From assembly GCA_013823725.1 (NCBI GenBank), contig PNMQ01000004.1:183156-247155 (forward strand): 64,000 nt of DNA, given 5' to 3'. This stretch comes from Candidatus Pelagibacter sp. (GTDB taxonomy: Bacteria > Pseudomonadota > Alphaproteobacteria > Paracaedibacterales > CAIOTO01). The translations under genes were made by a program, and so were the position numbers. Shown here one piece after another: positions 41,015 to 46,123 of the stretch. Each line of letters opens with the position of its first letter. Position 1 is the stretch's first letter. The notes beneath the pieces were generated by a model that was not told the origin of the DNA, made no database searches, and saw only the letters and a list, made by a program, of their open reading frames with translations.

Positions 41015-41701
41015 TCAAAAAAGCAGAGGAGACACGTTAAATGTAACGACGATGTGATTTTTTTCTGAAACAGAAAAAACAAGATAGTCAAAAGAAAAGA
41101 CCTTTTTTGCGTCATCTATTTCATCTTTAAAAGAAGGTCCTTTTAAATAAACCCCATACGCACTACTTTTTAGTAAATTGCTGTTTTTGATTTTCTTTGA
41201 AAAATCATGCCCTTTGTTTACCAGAATTTCCTCAACGTTTAAAAGTTGAACATCCTCATGTTGTCGAGACTCTGAAAGTTCATGTTGTACTTTCAGAAGA
41301 TTTTTCAAGGCCGAAAAGCCTCGTGCACAAAAATATGCGTATCTTTGCTTCAAACCAAACACATCTTCATTCAGCACTTTTCCTGGCAAATGAAGATGGT
41401 GAAGCATATATTTTAAAAATGAAGCTTTTTTAGAAATGATTTCACACATATGTGGCGTCAAACCCAATAGGGGTAAAATAAGTCCAGGAAAACCATTTCC
41501 CGAACCTATATCAAGAATTGGAGCATCTTTGGGGAAGAATTGTGCCAAGAGTACTGATTCATAAATATGACGTTCCCATAAATCTGTGCTATCTCCTTTT
41601 GAAATAAGATTATGGGTTTTATTCCATAGGGAAAACTCTTCAATGAAAGTAGTAAATTTTGTTTCTTGTTCTGTTGTTAATAAAAGTAAGTTTTGTTTCA
41701 T
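41015..41701 (-). CDS. rsmG: 16S rRNA m7G527 methyltransferase RsmG
   Basis: Also called GidB; methylates G527 of 16S rRNA using SAM. Motif I is ILDIGSGNGFPGLILPL, with LWERHIYESVLL before it and FCARGFSALKNLL after. 228 residues, somewhat divergent towards the C terminus. In many bacteria it sits by mnmG and parAB near the chromosome origin; here its start faces the probable oriC, about 60-350 bases away. Confidence 0.9.
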   Translation of the reverse strand: MKQNLLLLTTEQETKFTTFIEEFSLWNKTHNLISKGDSTDLWERHIYESVLLAQFFPKDAPILDIGSGNGFPGLILPLLGLTPHMCEIISKKASFLKYMLHHLHLPGKVLNEDVFGLKQRYAYFCARGFSALKNLLKVQHELSESRQHEDVQLLNVEEILVNKGHDFSKKIKNSNLLKSSAYGVYLKGPSFKDEIDDAKKVFSFDYLVFSVSEKNHIVVTFNVSPLLF

Positions 41702-41834
41702 GTTGATTTTGTTTTGTTTTTATCTTCTTGACCTTATCAAAAAAAAACAAAGCTTTCTCTAAAAAAATAAAAAAGGTTTATCTATATATTAATATATTAT
41801 TTATTATGTTGTTTTTAGAGGGGGTGTTGAAGAG

Positions 41835-41843
41835 TGTGCAAAA
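41835..41843 (-). promoter_or_regulatory. DnaA-box-like 9-mer
   Basis: Reads TTTTGCACA on the minus strand, one mismatch from TTATNCACA. Part of the probable oriC. Confidence 0.4.
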
Positions 41844-41846
41844 CTA

Positions 41847-41862
41847 TTAACGAAAAATTAAC
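41847..41862 (+). promoter_or_regulatory. CtrA-type box 1
   Basis: TTAACGAAAAATTAAC: an exact TTAA-N7-TTAAC, the full CtrA consensus of Caulobacter. In the probable oriC, next to a DnaA-like box. Confidence 0.65.
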
Positions 41863-41874
41863 CTTTGTCTTTTG

Positions 41875-41890
41875 TTAAGGATTTGTTAAC
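41875..41890 (+). promoter_or_regulatory. CtrA-type box 2
   Basis: TTAAGGATTTGTTAAC: a second exact TTAA-N7-TTAAC, beginning 28 bases after the first in the same orientation. Confidence 0.65.
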
Positions 41891-41941
41891 CTTTTCACAG
41901 CTTTTTGATTCATGAGTTTCAATTGATAATGGGGAAACCGA

Positions 41942-41950
41942 TGTGGACAA
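41942..41950 (-). promoter_or_regulatory. DnaA-box-like 9-mer
   Basis: Reads TTGTCCACA on the minus strand, one mismatch from TTATCCACA. Confidence 0.45.
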
Positions 41951-42012
41951 AGGGTGAGTTGTTAGACTCTATTTATTCAAAGTTTATCTTGTTGATTGTT
42001 TCAACGTTTATA

Positions 42013-42027
42013 TTAAGGCTTCATTAA
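42013..42027 (+). promoter_or_regulatory. CtrA-type box 3
   Basis: TTAAGGCTTCATTAA: an exact TTAA-N7-TTAA without the trailing C, close to the aroE start and to a DnaA-like box, so it could also control aroE. Confidence 0.5.
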
Positions 42028-42031
42028 ATAG

Positions 42032-42040
42032 TTTTCCACA
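42032..42040 (+). promoter_or_regulatory. DnaA-box-like 9-mer
   Basis: TTTTCCACA, one mismatch from TTATCCACA, 25 bases before the chosen aroE start. Confidence 0.45.
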
Positions 42041-42064
42041 TTGGTTTTTAAAAGGATTTCGGCT

Positions 42065-42931
42065 TTGAGTATTGCAAAAAAAGTCTCTTTAGGTGTTTTT
42101 GGTAAGAATATTTCCTACTCTCTTTCTCCTGTTGTTTATGATGCGTGGTTTAACCATTTTAATATTAGTGGTCATTGTTCCTTGATTCAAAAAAACATGT
42201 TTGATTTTGAGGAAGTTTCTTTGGAATTTAGTAAGTATTATGGCTGGGCCATCACTGTGCCCTACAAAGAAAAAATTGTTGAATGGCTTAAAACACACCC
42301 TTCTGCATCGTGGGACAGTTGGGTTGAGGAACTAGGCGTTGCCAATATCATAAAAAACAAAGAAGATTGCGTGGTGGCCACTAATACAGACGCTTTGGCT
42401 CTTGGTTTTTTTCTTTCTCAAAATGATTTTACTGAAAAGCTAAAGTTTTCTAAAAACGTATTGATTTTAGGTGGAGGGGGTGTTGCTAAAACATCGGAGG
42501 CTGTGCTGAAAAGAATCATGCCAGAGCAGAGGTCTTTCAACATTTACATGGCCCAGCGAAATCTTGTGGGTAAGGACTGTAAAAACAATATATCTCTCTA
42601 TGATTTCAAAACAATGGAAAAAATAGGTTTTGATGTGATTATTAATGCCACTCCTATGGGAACATCAAGAAATGAAGAGCATCATGTTTTGACGGAAATT
42701 AGTGCGGTTTTGAAGCAGAATAAAGGATCACTTGTCATAGACTGGGCGTACGATGTGACCCCTACATTTTGGGACTGTTGGACCAAACAAGAGGATGTTC
42801 TGTTTTTGGGTGGCACTGATTTGTTAATACAGCAAGCAGCCTTTGCTTTTGAATTTTGGTTTGGGCTTGTTCCGCCTTTGTTTTTAGCAAAACAAGCCAT
42901 TGAAAGCGCTATAAGCAAAACAGAGGTTTAG
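42065..42931 (+). CDS. aroE: Shikimate dehydrogenase
   Basis: Reduces 3-dehydroshikimate to shikimate with NADPH. Substrate-binding SLSP near the N terminus, catalytic Lys in ITVPYKEKI, NTDALALGF, the glycine loop LGGGGVAKTS and NATPMGT. I prefer the TTG at 42065 because AAAGG lies about eight bases upstream; the frame extends to a TTG at 42041 which lacks one. About 288 residues. Its stop overlaps the end of the broken methyltransferase by four bases. The maf-aroE-coaE-dnaQ order near alphaproteobacterial origins fits its place. Confidence 0.92.
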   Translation: MSIAKKVSLGVFGKNISYSLSPVVYDAWFNHFNISGHCSLIQKNMFDFEEVSLEFSKYYGWAITVPYKEKIVEWLKTHPSASWDSWVEELGVANIIKNKEDCVVATNTDALALGFFLSQNDFTEKLKFSKNVLILGGGGVAKTSEAVLKRIMPEQRSFNIYMAQRNLVGKDCKNNISLYDFKTMEKIGFDVIINATPMGTSRNEEHHVLTEISAVLKQNKGSLVIDWAYDVTPTFWDCWTKQEDVLFLGGTDLLIQQAAFAFEFWFGLVPPLFLAKQAIESAISKTEV

Positions 42932-43538
42932 AGAAGCGGGTTTTTCCATAGGTGTGTTTTTTTAACACCGCCACCATGGTAGTGCAAAATTGTTTCCATT
43001 TTTAAATTAAAGGGTGGCTGTGTTAGGTCAAGGGGTCTCCAACCACCGGGCTGTATTTCTTGGTTTATGGTTTGGTGGGCTAGTTCTTTTCTGTTTTCAA
43101 CACAATTTGTGATTAGTACATACTTGAATTTTGACATATACTCTATAAAACTTAAGACTCGGCTATTATCAAGATGTTGAAGCACATCTTTGATTATGCA
43201 TAAATCTGCTGATTCCACCTTTGAAAAGTCACCGTCATACAACTTAAAACAAACGTTTTCTTTGGTGTGTTGAGTCTTGTTTTTTCAATAACAAAATTTG
43301 CAACATCATATCCTGTGTATTGTTTTTCTTCTGGAATCTCTACAAGAGACATGATCTGCCAATCTCCGCATCCTACGTCGACAATAGTCTTTATGTCTTT
43401 TTGTTTGATGATTTGACTTAGTTTTCTTCTGTCGGCTACTGTGTTTTGAGAGAACGACCCGTCTCCGGACCCCCCTCTCCAAATATCGTGTTTGTAGATA
43501 TAGTCAAACTGTTCGTTTAAGTTTACCCCTTCTTTCAT
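42928..43538 (-). pseudogene. Class I SAM methyltransferase, broken by one frameshift
   Basis: The first reading frame (from the ATG at 43538) holds WRGGSGDGSFS, then VDVGCGDWQIM and YTGYDVANFVI; it stops early. The rest, in the -1 frame, has VESADLCIIKDVLQHLDN, YVLITNC and GGWRPLDLTQPPFNL. Joined, they form one complete methyltransferase of a common family. The shift falls in the AAA run at 43261-43263: one extra A would join the parts without gap. Either a real single-base loss or a homopolymer error. It starts with TAATG overlap to the aminotransferase, so it belonged to the same unit. Confidence 0.8.
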
Positions 43539-44707
43539 TATTTTTCCTTAATAAAAATCTCTTCATACAGTTCGTTTGCGTTTTGCGCAACACGAATAAT
43601 ATCTTCTTCCGTTAAATTGCAATGCAAGGGAAAGGTTATCATTCGTGACCACAAATCTTCAGCCACAGGAAGTGGTTCTGTGTTATGTGTTTTAAAAAAT
43701 GAAACAAGATGGTTGGGCTTGTAGTGTAGGCCCGATTCTATGCCTCTTTCTAATAGCTTTTCCATAAGTAGGTTTCTTTTAGATCGCATTGTTTCTGGGT
43801 CCAAAGAACCTGGATTGGTAAGATTAAAAATATAGGGGTGAGGAATAGTGTTTTCAATATCCAAAGGTAGTGGTGATCCAATATGTTTATTTAGGGTTTT
43901 TGTGTACAGTTTAAAATGGTTCTGTCTAATTTTTGCAAATGTATCTATTTTTTTAAGCTGTGCTAATCCAATTGCTGCATTGACATTGCTCATGTGGTAT
44001 CTCCATCCTTGTTCCACGCAGTCAAAATCGTAGGATCGTTTACCTGCATATCTTTGTTCTGAATCTTTGAATACACCTAAAAGACGCAGGTCGCTGACAC
44101 GTTGAAATACGTTGGGGTCTCGCGTTACGACAGCGCCACCTTCTGCACACGTGATGTTTTTAACACCATCAAAGCTGAAGCAAATGATATCTCCTTCATC
44201 TCCTACTTTTTTCCCGTCAACGGTTCCGCCGAATGAGTGGGCAGCGTCTTCGATGACCCGAAGGTTGTGTTTTTTAGCAATGGCGTATATTTCTTTGATG
44301 GGGCCAAGGTGACTTCCGTAATGCACCGGCATGATGGCTTTTGTTTTTGAAGAAAGACGTTTTAGGGTGTCTGCGGGACAAATGCAACCTGTGTCTGGTT
44401 GAACATCAACAGCAATAGGCGTGGCCCCTGTTGCTGTTATGGCATGAAAAGAGGCCAGATAAGTGATGGTTGGAACGAGAACTTCGTCTCCATCTTTAAG
44501 ATCGATAGCTTGACAGGCCAGATGAAGTGCCGATGTTCCTGTTGATACGCATGCAACATAGGGTGGGTTTTCTGGGTTTAAAAAGTCTTGTAGCGCTTTT
44601 TCAAATTCTTTTACTTTGCTTCCAAGCCCAAGATATTTTGTTTCAAATGCCAATCTGATGGATGCAATTTCTTCTTCGCCGACACACGGTTGGGATATTT
44701 TAATCAT
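43538..44707 (-). CDS. DegT/DnrJ/EryC1/StrS family sugar aminotransferase
   Basis: PLP enzyme that transaminates a keto-sugar nucleotide, or a related dehydratase. Core motifs: VACVSTGTSALHLA, VEPTITYLASFHA region, VIEDAAHSFGG and the PLP Lys in FSFDGVKNITCAEGGAVVT. The 389 residues are normal. It lies 15 bases after miaB and is coupled to the broken methyltransferase by TAATG. It probably makes an amino sugar for surface glycans; substrate unknown. Confidence 0.9.
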   Translation of the reverse strand: MIKISQPCVGEEEIASIRLAFETKYLGLGSKVKEFEKALQDFLNPENPPYVACVSTGTSALHLACQAIDLKDGDEVLVPTITYLASFHAITATGATPIAVDVQPDTGCICPADTLKRLSSKTKAIMPVHYGSHLGPIKEIYAIAKKHNLRVIEDAAHSFGGTVDGKKVGDEGDIICFSFDGVKNITCAEGGAVVTRDPNVFQRVSDLRLLGVFKDSEQRYAGKRSYDFDCVEQGWRYHMSNVNAAIGLAQLKKIDTFAKIRQNHFKLYTKTLNKHIGSPLPLDIENTIPHPYIFNLTNPGSLDPETMRSKRNLLMEKLLERGIESGLHYKPNHLVSFFKTHNTEPLPVAEDLWSRMITFPLHCNLTEEDIIRVAQNANELYEEIFIKEK

Positions 44708-44722
44708 AAGACCTCTCTTCTT

Positions 44723-46123
44723 TTATAATATTGTTTGCTGTGTTTGGGAAATCAGGCCTTTTAGGCTGTTGGTAAAGGTGTGTTCTATTTTTATATCACA
44801 CATTGTTCCTTGTATTTCTTCTGGGCCGTCAAAATAGACAGATTGCATGTATTCTGATCGACCAGACAGTTGTCCATCTTTTTTTCCTGTTTTATCAACT
44901 AAAACCTTTAGGGTTTTGTCTTTAAATGTCTGGTTGAATTTTAATTGCTGTTCGCTGATGAGGGCTTGTAGTTCTGCTAGACGAACAACCTTGATTTCCT
45001 CTGGAATTTGTTGTTCCATAATTGCAGCAGGAGTTCCGGGGCGTTGACTATATTTGAAAGAATAGGCCTGAGAATATTCTACAGCTTTAATTAAAGATAG
45101 TGTGTCTTGGTGATCTTGGTCTGACTCCCCTGGAAATCCCACAATAAAATCGGATGAAAATGCAATGTCAGGACGGTATTTTCTAAGTTTTTCAATAACT
45201 TCCAAATAGTCTTTGGCTGTGTGTTGGCGGTTCATCATTTTTAAAATACTATTGCTTCCTGATTGAACAGGAAGATGTAAAAAGGGCATCAGAGCCGGAA
45301 CATCTCTGTGTGCTTCGTAAAGCTCTGTTGGCATGTCCAAAGGATGCGACGTTGTGTAGCGAATTCTTTCTATCCCGTTTATTTTGCCAACCTCAAAAAT
45401 AAGTTGCCCCAGATTCCATTCTTTGGACGGTTCTGTTGGGCTTTCTCCGTGATATGCATTTACATTTTGACCCAATAGCGTTATTTCTTTTGCACCCATT
45501 TCGGCAAGATGTTTGGCTTCTTTAACGATTTCAGTAACGGGTCTAGAATATTCTGATCCTCGTGTATAAGGGACAACACAGAATGTGCAAAAGTTATCGC
45601 ATCCTTCTTGTATTGATAAAAAAGCAGAGGTTCGCGATTCTTGAGTTTGTGGAAGAAGGTCAAACTTGCTTTCCACAGGAAAATCTGTGTCGACCACACT
45701 TCTAAGTTTTCTTTTTTGGCTTTTGTTTAGATTTGTTGATTCCTTCAGCTCTTCTTTTTGTCGGTACAGCTTTGTAATAAGCTCTGGAAGCCTATGATAT
45801 GTTTGAGGACCAAACACCATATCGACGTACGGTGCTTGACGAATTATTTCATCTCCTTCTGCTTGTGCGACACAACCAGCAACCCCTATGAGCAAATCTT
45901 TTTCTTGTTTTAAGGGGCGGACTCTTCCTAAGTCTGAATAAAGCTTTTGTTCTGCTTTTTCGCGAATGTGGCAAGTATTAAAGATAACAACATCTGCTTC
46001 GTTGGGGGTGTCTACAGATTCAAAACCATGAGGTTTTAGTAGGTCGACCATTTTTTCTGAATCGTATACATTCATTTGGCAGCCGTATGTTTTGACGTGA
46101 ACTTTTTTTAAATTTTCTTTCAT
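44723..46123 (-). CDS. miaB: tRNA-2-methylthio-N6-dimethylallyladenosine synthase MiaB
   Basis: Radical-SAM methylthiotransferase that modifies A37 of tRNAs reading U-starting codons. N-terminal cluster domain VKTYGCQMNVYDSEKM, then EEGCDNFCTFCVVPYTRG-type radical SAM motif (CDNFCTFC), and a C-terminal TRAM domain. The 466 residues are normal. The gene reads on the minus strand, yet its plus strand is G-rich, which helps define the strand bias right of the probable origin. Confidence 0.95.
   Translation of the reverse strand: MKENLKKVHVKTYGCQMNVYDSEKMVDLLKPHGFESVDTPNEADVVIFNTCHIREKAEQKLYSDLGRVRPLKQEKDLLIGVAGCVAQAEGDEIIRQAPYVDMVFGPQTYHRLPELITKLYRQKEELKESTNLNKSQKRKLRSVVDTDFPVESKFDLLPQTQESRTSAFLSIQEGCDNFCTFCVVPYTRGSEYSRPVTEIVKEAKHLAEMGAKEITLLGQNVNAYHGESPTEPSKEWNLGQLIFEVGKINGIERIRYTTSHPLDMPTELYEAHRDVPALMPFLHLPVQSGSNSILKMMNRQHTAKDYLEVIEKLRKYRPDIAFSSDFIVGFPGESDQDHQDTLSLIKAVEYSQAYSFKYSQRPGTPAAIMEQQIPEEIKVVRLAELQALISEQQLKFNQTFKDKTLKVLVDKTGKKDGQLSGRSEYMQSVYFDGPEEIQGTMCDIKIEHTFTNSLKGLISQTQQTIL

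Follow-up and report, generated by a model that had tools for sequence, protein, structure and literature searches.

Among the closest described systems is Cori, the chromosomal origin of Caulobacter crescentus, which carries five CtrA sites with weak DnaA boxes beside them, and for which the exclusion of DnaA has been regarded as the simplest mechanism (PMC4468827). In laboratory culture, the loss of CtrA affinity from Cori disturbs the cell cycle only mildly (PMC4468827). CtrA sites were predicted also in the origins of Wolbachia and its allies in a 2007 study (PMC1914354); the number of CtrA boxes in the predicted origins of Rickettsia and Wolbachia ranges from 0 to 7, and the flanks of the Wolbachia origin also deviate from the hemE/COG1806 arrangement (PMC1914354). 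A 2015 review stated that CtrA sites had not been seen in alphaproteobacterial origins apart from Caulobacter and possibly Rickettsia, and that the use of CtrA at origins probably evolved more than once (PMC4468827). In the literature searched, we found no paper describing CtrA boxes at the origin for the group of bacteria considered here.

The window, i.e. the whole stretch of 64 kb analysed here, contains an AT-rich region between rsmG and aroE with three TTAA-N7-TTAA boxes (Table 1). It is fairly likely that this region is both the chromosomal origin and a direct target of CtrA, which in its phosphorylated form would hold initiation back by excluding DnaA.

The region between rsmG and aroE

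Table 1. Features of the candidate origin and its flanks (positions in the window)
Feature	Position	Strand	Evidence or remark
Candidate chromosomal origin, rsmG (-)/aroE (+) intergenic region	41702..42064		GC skew, AT 0.73, aroE-side DnaA-box clusters in relatives
rsmG (gidB), left flank	41015..41701	-	Pfam GidB, 96.7 bits
aroE, right flank	42065..42931	+	Pfam Shikimate_dh_N
AT-rich tract, putative unwinding element	41761..41819		Direct sequence reading; similar tract at a comparable place in same-family origins
DnaA box TTTTGCACA, fits TTWTNCACA	41835..41843	-	3 bp from CtrA box 1
CtrA box 1, TTAACGAAAAATTAAC	41847..41862	+	Sequence and motif scan; ends in full TTAAC
CtrA box 2, GTTAAGGATTTGTTAAC (TTAAGGATTTGTTAAC from 41875)	41874..41890	both	Sequence and motif scan
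DnaA-like box TTGTCCACA, weak, one mismatch	41942..41950	-	Motif scan
CtrA box 3, TTAAGGCTTCATTAA	42013..42027	+	Final C absent; sequence and motif scan
DnaA box TTTTCCACA, fits TTWTNCACA	42032..42040	+	4 bp from CtrA box 3

The cumulative GC skew reaches its minimum at 41383 and its sign changes at the rsmG-aroE region; in the stretches from contig C2 the skew is negative to the left and positive to the right of the candidate origin. In the relatives, clusters of DnaA boxes were found upstream of aroE, either directly or with a gene in between, so the origin of this organism is expected on the aroE side too, with rsmG as the left neighbour. In some relatives the other side of the DnaA-box cluster is occupied by mipZ or by a Bax1-I gene. 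The skew switch, the AT-rich tract, the DnaA boxes and the aroE-side origins of the relatives together make the rsmG-aroE region the best candidate and a probable origin. For aroE, the TTG codon at 42065, preceded by AAGGA at 42052-42056, is a likelier start than the TTG at 42041. No match to the loose IHF consensus WATCARNNNNTTR was found in 41651-42100 with no mismatches allowed.

Could the CtrA sites be real and the origin nevertheless lie elsewhere on the chromosome than 41.7-42.06 kb? The candidate origin contains no TTATNCACA box, the whole 64-kb window no perfect TTATCCACA and the genome no closely spaced pair of TTATNCACA boxes, and the draft genome comprises nine contigs, all of which speaks for such a displacement. 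It is nonetheless very improbable, given the clear skew minimum with its consistent signs along C2 and the agreement of the aroE-adjacent location with the origins of the relatives. The region upstream of mipZ was considered as an alternative origin and rejected: it has three CtrA-type boxes, but neither a DnaA box nor a change of skew.

Both boxes that fit TTWTNCACA lie 3-4 bp from CtrA boxes, an arrangement of marginal significance in simulation (P 0.05). The DnaA protein itself (L212:352-1779; G000 C3, about 54.7-56.1 kb) is intact. It exhibits the motif SYVDIG, vs. SLPEIG or SLPDIG in the relatives, has valine at the position of P423 of E. coli (a reported box contact), where all four relatives checked have proline, and retains the equivalents of R399, D433, H434, T435 and H439. 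An altered DnaA recognition code, suggested by the P423 position, was set aside as a weak reading, because Helicobacter DnaA has leucine there, and variation at this position was considered not to account for the box specificity of that protein (PMC5043019).

Several features of the neighborhood may be recorded in passing. In one family of the order (L041, L052, L138 and L140) the DnaA-box region adjoins mipZ, and in L041 and L052 it has aroE on its other side; the gene of the division-site ATPase therefore adjoins the likely origin in these genomes. In the window, two overlapping ORFs on the minus strand (42928-43242 and 43194-43538, within 42928-43538) look as though a frameshift had divided a single methyltransferase-type gene, and neither half was assigned to a Pfam family. 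The stretch 44001-46000, over miaB and a DegT/DnrJ aminotransferase gene, has a GC content of up to 0.41, vs. about 0.33 around it, and is possibly a recent acquisition.

CtrA boxes at the candidate origin and across the genome

The initial annotation had reported exact TTAA-N7-TTAA at 41847, 41875 and 42013, the first two ending in C and beginning 28 bases apart. All three are present at these positions, and both the final C and the 28-bp spacing were confirmed. Box 2 represents the full TTAAN7TTAAC on either strand, since its sequence is GTTAAGGATTTGTTAAC. The accompanying estimate, fewer than 0.1 such sites by chance, is roughly correct for the full form and somewhat low for TTAAN7TTAA.

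Are the boxes accidental pairs of TTAA in AT-rich DNA, with no CtrA function at the candidate origin? The motif is not enriched across the 64-kb window (7 seen vs. 10.75 expected), and TTAAN7TTAAC is rarer genome-wide than its reversed control (39 vs. 69), so the count alone proves nothing; moreover, most located origins of the order lack the boxes. A chance origin is nevertheless improbable. When the 339-bp intergenic region 41702-42040 was shuffled 20,000 times with its dinucleotide composition preserved, the mean number of boxes was 0.13, with P = 0.0003 for at least three boxes and P = 0.0007 for at least two full ones. The worry that the boxes might be as frequent in the genome's intergenic DNA outside the candidate origin was not borne out: that DNA has 32 sites in 38.4 kb, and against this density, which itself includes likely real sites, the candidate origin is denser, with Poisson P-values of 0.003 for at least three boxes and 0.002 for at least two full boxes. 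Three boxes, the highest count, were found in just two of the 242 sampled intergenic regions, the candidate origin and the mipZ promoter. The three-box cluster in the rsmG-aroE intergenic region is non-random.

The genome-wide count of TTAAN7TTAAC is misleading as a functional test, because coding DNA dominates it, and it was replaced by a scan of spacings in intergenic DNA. The sample comprised 464 kb (the window and twenty 20-kb stretches, about a third of the draft genome), in which genes were called by longest ORFs and TTAA-Nk-TTAA was counted between them for k = 0 to 40. With the candidate origin left out, k = 7 gives 32 sites, compared with a mean of 12 and a maximum of 22 for the 40 other spacings (P about 1e-6 for the excess). 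Spacing 7 is also the highest or tied for the highest in two relatives, though the signal is weaker there. None of the 34 sites in the sampled intergenic DNA lies between convergent genes, and their median distance to a start codon is 54 bp; the enrichment at promoters that had been proposed for testing was thus seen, at intergenic, promoter-side positions. The genes downstream of boxes include ctrA, mipZ (three boxes), fliL, cheA, clpP and a gene for a methyl-accepting protein, a set that fits a CtrA regulon.

The ctrA gene has a box at -104, and a box recurs at about -104 to -112 of ctrA in two other families. All five same-family relatives retain a mipZ box at -71 to -73, which suggests that the division-site inhibitor is controlled directly by CtrA; in the genome studied here, the three TTAA-N7-TTAA boxes are located between mipZ and a divergent gene with ALTTAQ repeats (L083:8213-8465; G000 C3, about 68.2-68.5 kb). 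The CheA-type gene L086:3880-7083 has its CtrA-type box 47 bp upstream. The other CheA-like kinase (L160:3629-6178; G000 C1) comprises 849 aa and has a receiver domain at the C-terminus.

The promoter-side placement of boxes elsewhere, with their short median distance to start codons and their absence between convergent genes, suits a reading in which the boxes between rsmG and aroE are genuine CtrA sites that act as promoter elements for rsmG, aroE or an origin transcript, with no block of replication, and box 3 indeed ends 37 bp ahead of the likely aroE start. We regard this reading as unlikely, however: boxes 1 and 2 are at least 145 bp away from both genes, a distance at the upper end for the 34 sites (5 of which lie beyond 140 bp), and the sole promoter-like match nearby does not stand out from matches in shuffled sequences. 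Moreover, the left neighbour varies in the relatives, while a box within the DnaA cluster recurs.

CtrA and its phosphorelay

The initial annotation took the boxes to suggest that CtrA-type cell-cycle control is kept in this organism, a suggestion that depends on the presence of ctrA. A clear ortholog was found at C3:104593-105270. Its product is 63% identical to Caulobacter CtrA, scores 385 bits against an NCBIfam CtrA cut-off of 350, and also matches the solved structure of the CtrA receiver (4qpj); the matches to NCBIfam and 4qpj do not depend on the Caulobacter query sequence. The phospho-acceptor D51 is retained, and in the DNA-binding domain residues 158-198 match those of Caulobacter exactly; the recognition region is essentially unchanged. 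Of the 42 genomes of the order that were searched, nearly all have a CtrA ortholog, at 76-89% identity.

The hybrid kinase encoded at C1:48348-50780 finds its best match in the CckA models (607 bits, below the CckA cut-off of 1000), and a ChpT-type protein encoded at C4:73245-73532 scores over the Pfam cut-off; both proteins remain below the NCBIfam equivalog cut-offs. All three members of the CckA-ChpT-CtrA relay are therefore encoded, CckA and ChpT as CckA-like and ChpT-like proteins. DivK and CpdR were not recognised in profile and similarity searches of the genome, in which the single-domain receivers found are CheY- or CheB-like, and the match to GcrA is below the cut-off. Thus, among the four genes proposed for a search, ctrA, cckA and chpT have counterparts and divK was not recognised. 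The ctrA ortholog, the CckA-like and ChpT-like genes, the density of boxes at the candidate origin and their promoter-side enrichment elsewhere support the suggestion that CtrA-type control is kept.

A predicted brake on initiation and its counterparts

With three CtrA boxes beside weak DnaA sites, and with CtrA and its kinase relay still encoded, the lineage of this small-genome alphaproteobacterium probably brakes the copying of its chromosome much as Caulobacter does. CckA and ChpT would phosphorylate CtrA, dimers of CtrA~P would occupy boxes 1 and 2, 28 bp apart, as well as box 3, and the bound protein would overlap or crowd the adjacent weak DnaA boxes. DnaA would thereby be unable to assemble, and initiation would be delayed until CtrA is dephosphorylated or removed. 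The proposed block of DnaA by CtrA~P is modelled on Cori, in which CtrA sites also have weak DnaA boxes beside them and exclusion is the simplest mechanism (PMC4468827).

The origins of the relatives were located by clusters of at least 4 DnaA boxes, and the comparison is thus biased towards origins rich in these boxes; in those located, the TTATNCACA boxes number 2-7 and the CtrA boxes 0-1, vs. none and three, respectively, in the candidate origin. In one genus (L039, L041 and L043), the aroE-side regions lack CtrA boxes and have just two or three DnaA boxes. Among same-family relatives, G003 and G004 each have one exact CtrA box within the DnaA cluster, and in G001 the box carries one mismatch. 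The alignment of the same-family origins does not place the single box of the relatives opposite box 1, 2 or 3, and conservation of position was dropped as an argument. In the other families of the order, most of the located origins have no exact CtrA box, though these genomes encode CtrA. Perhaps this lineage acquired CtrA control of its origin, or extended it, as its strong DnaA boxes decayed? The valine at the P423 position of its DnaA would fit such a history. We put this forward tentatively and with some doubt, because the genus is represented by one genome, and in five of the eight families no origin was located with confidence. If true, the lineage would have converged on the design of Caulobacter, in which the origin binds CtrA strongly and DnaA weakly.

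The candidate origin shares with Cori of C. crescentus the TTAA-N7-TTAA sites across an AT-rich origin, the nearby weak DnaA boxes and the CckA-ChpT-CtrA relay (PMC1914354, PMC4468827). It differs in having three rather than five CtrA sites, in being flanked by rsmG and aroE, the hemE/COG1806 flanks of Cori not being found here, and, unlike in Caulobacter, in the lack of a recognised DivK or CpdR and of a match to the IHF consensus. With the predicted origins of Rickettsia and Wolbachia, likewise from small-genome Alphaproteobacteria, it shares the combination of CtrA boxes, DnaA boxes and high AT content in one intergenic region (PMC1914354), whereas those origins have a hemE flank with COG1806 or COG1253, and IHF sites were described there (PMC1914354). 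In G003 and G004 (genus g2 of the same family) the origin also adjoins aroE and has a CtrA box amid DnaA boxes, but there are six TTATNCACA boxes, a single CtrA box and a Bax1-I gene in place of rsmG. This organism thus adds another small-genome lineage, which combines three boxes with a reduced relay and whose close relatives have one box or none, and offers a natural comparison for when and why cells place the origin under CtrA.
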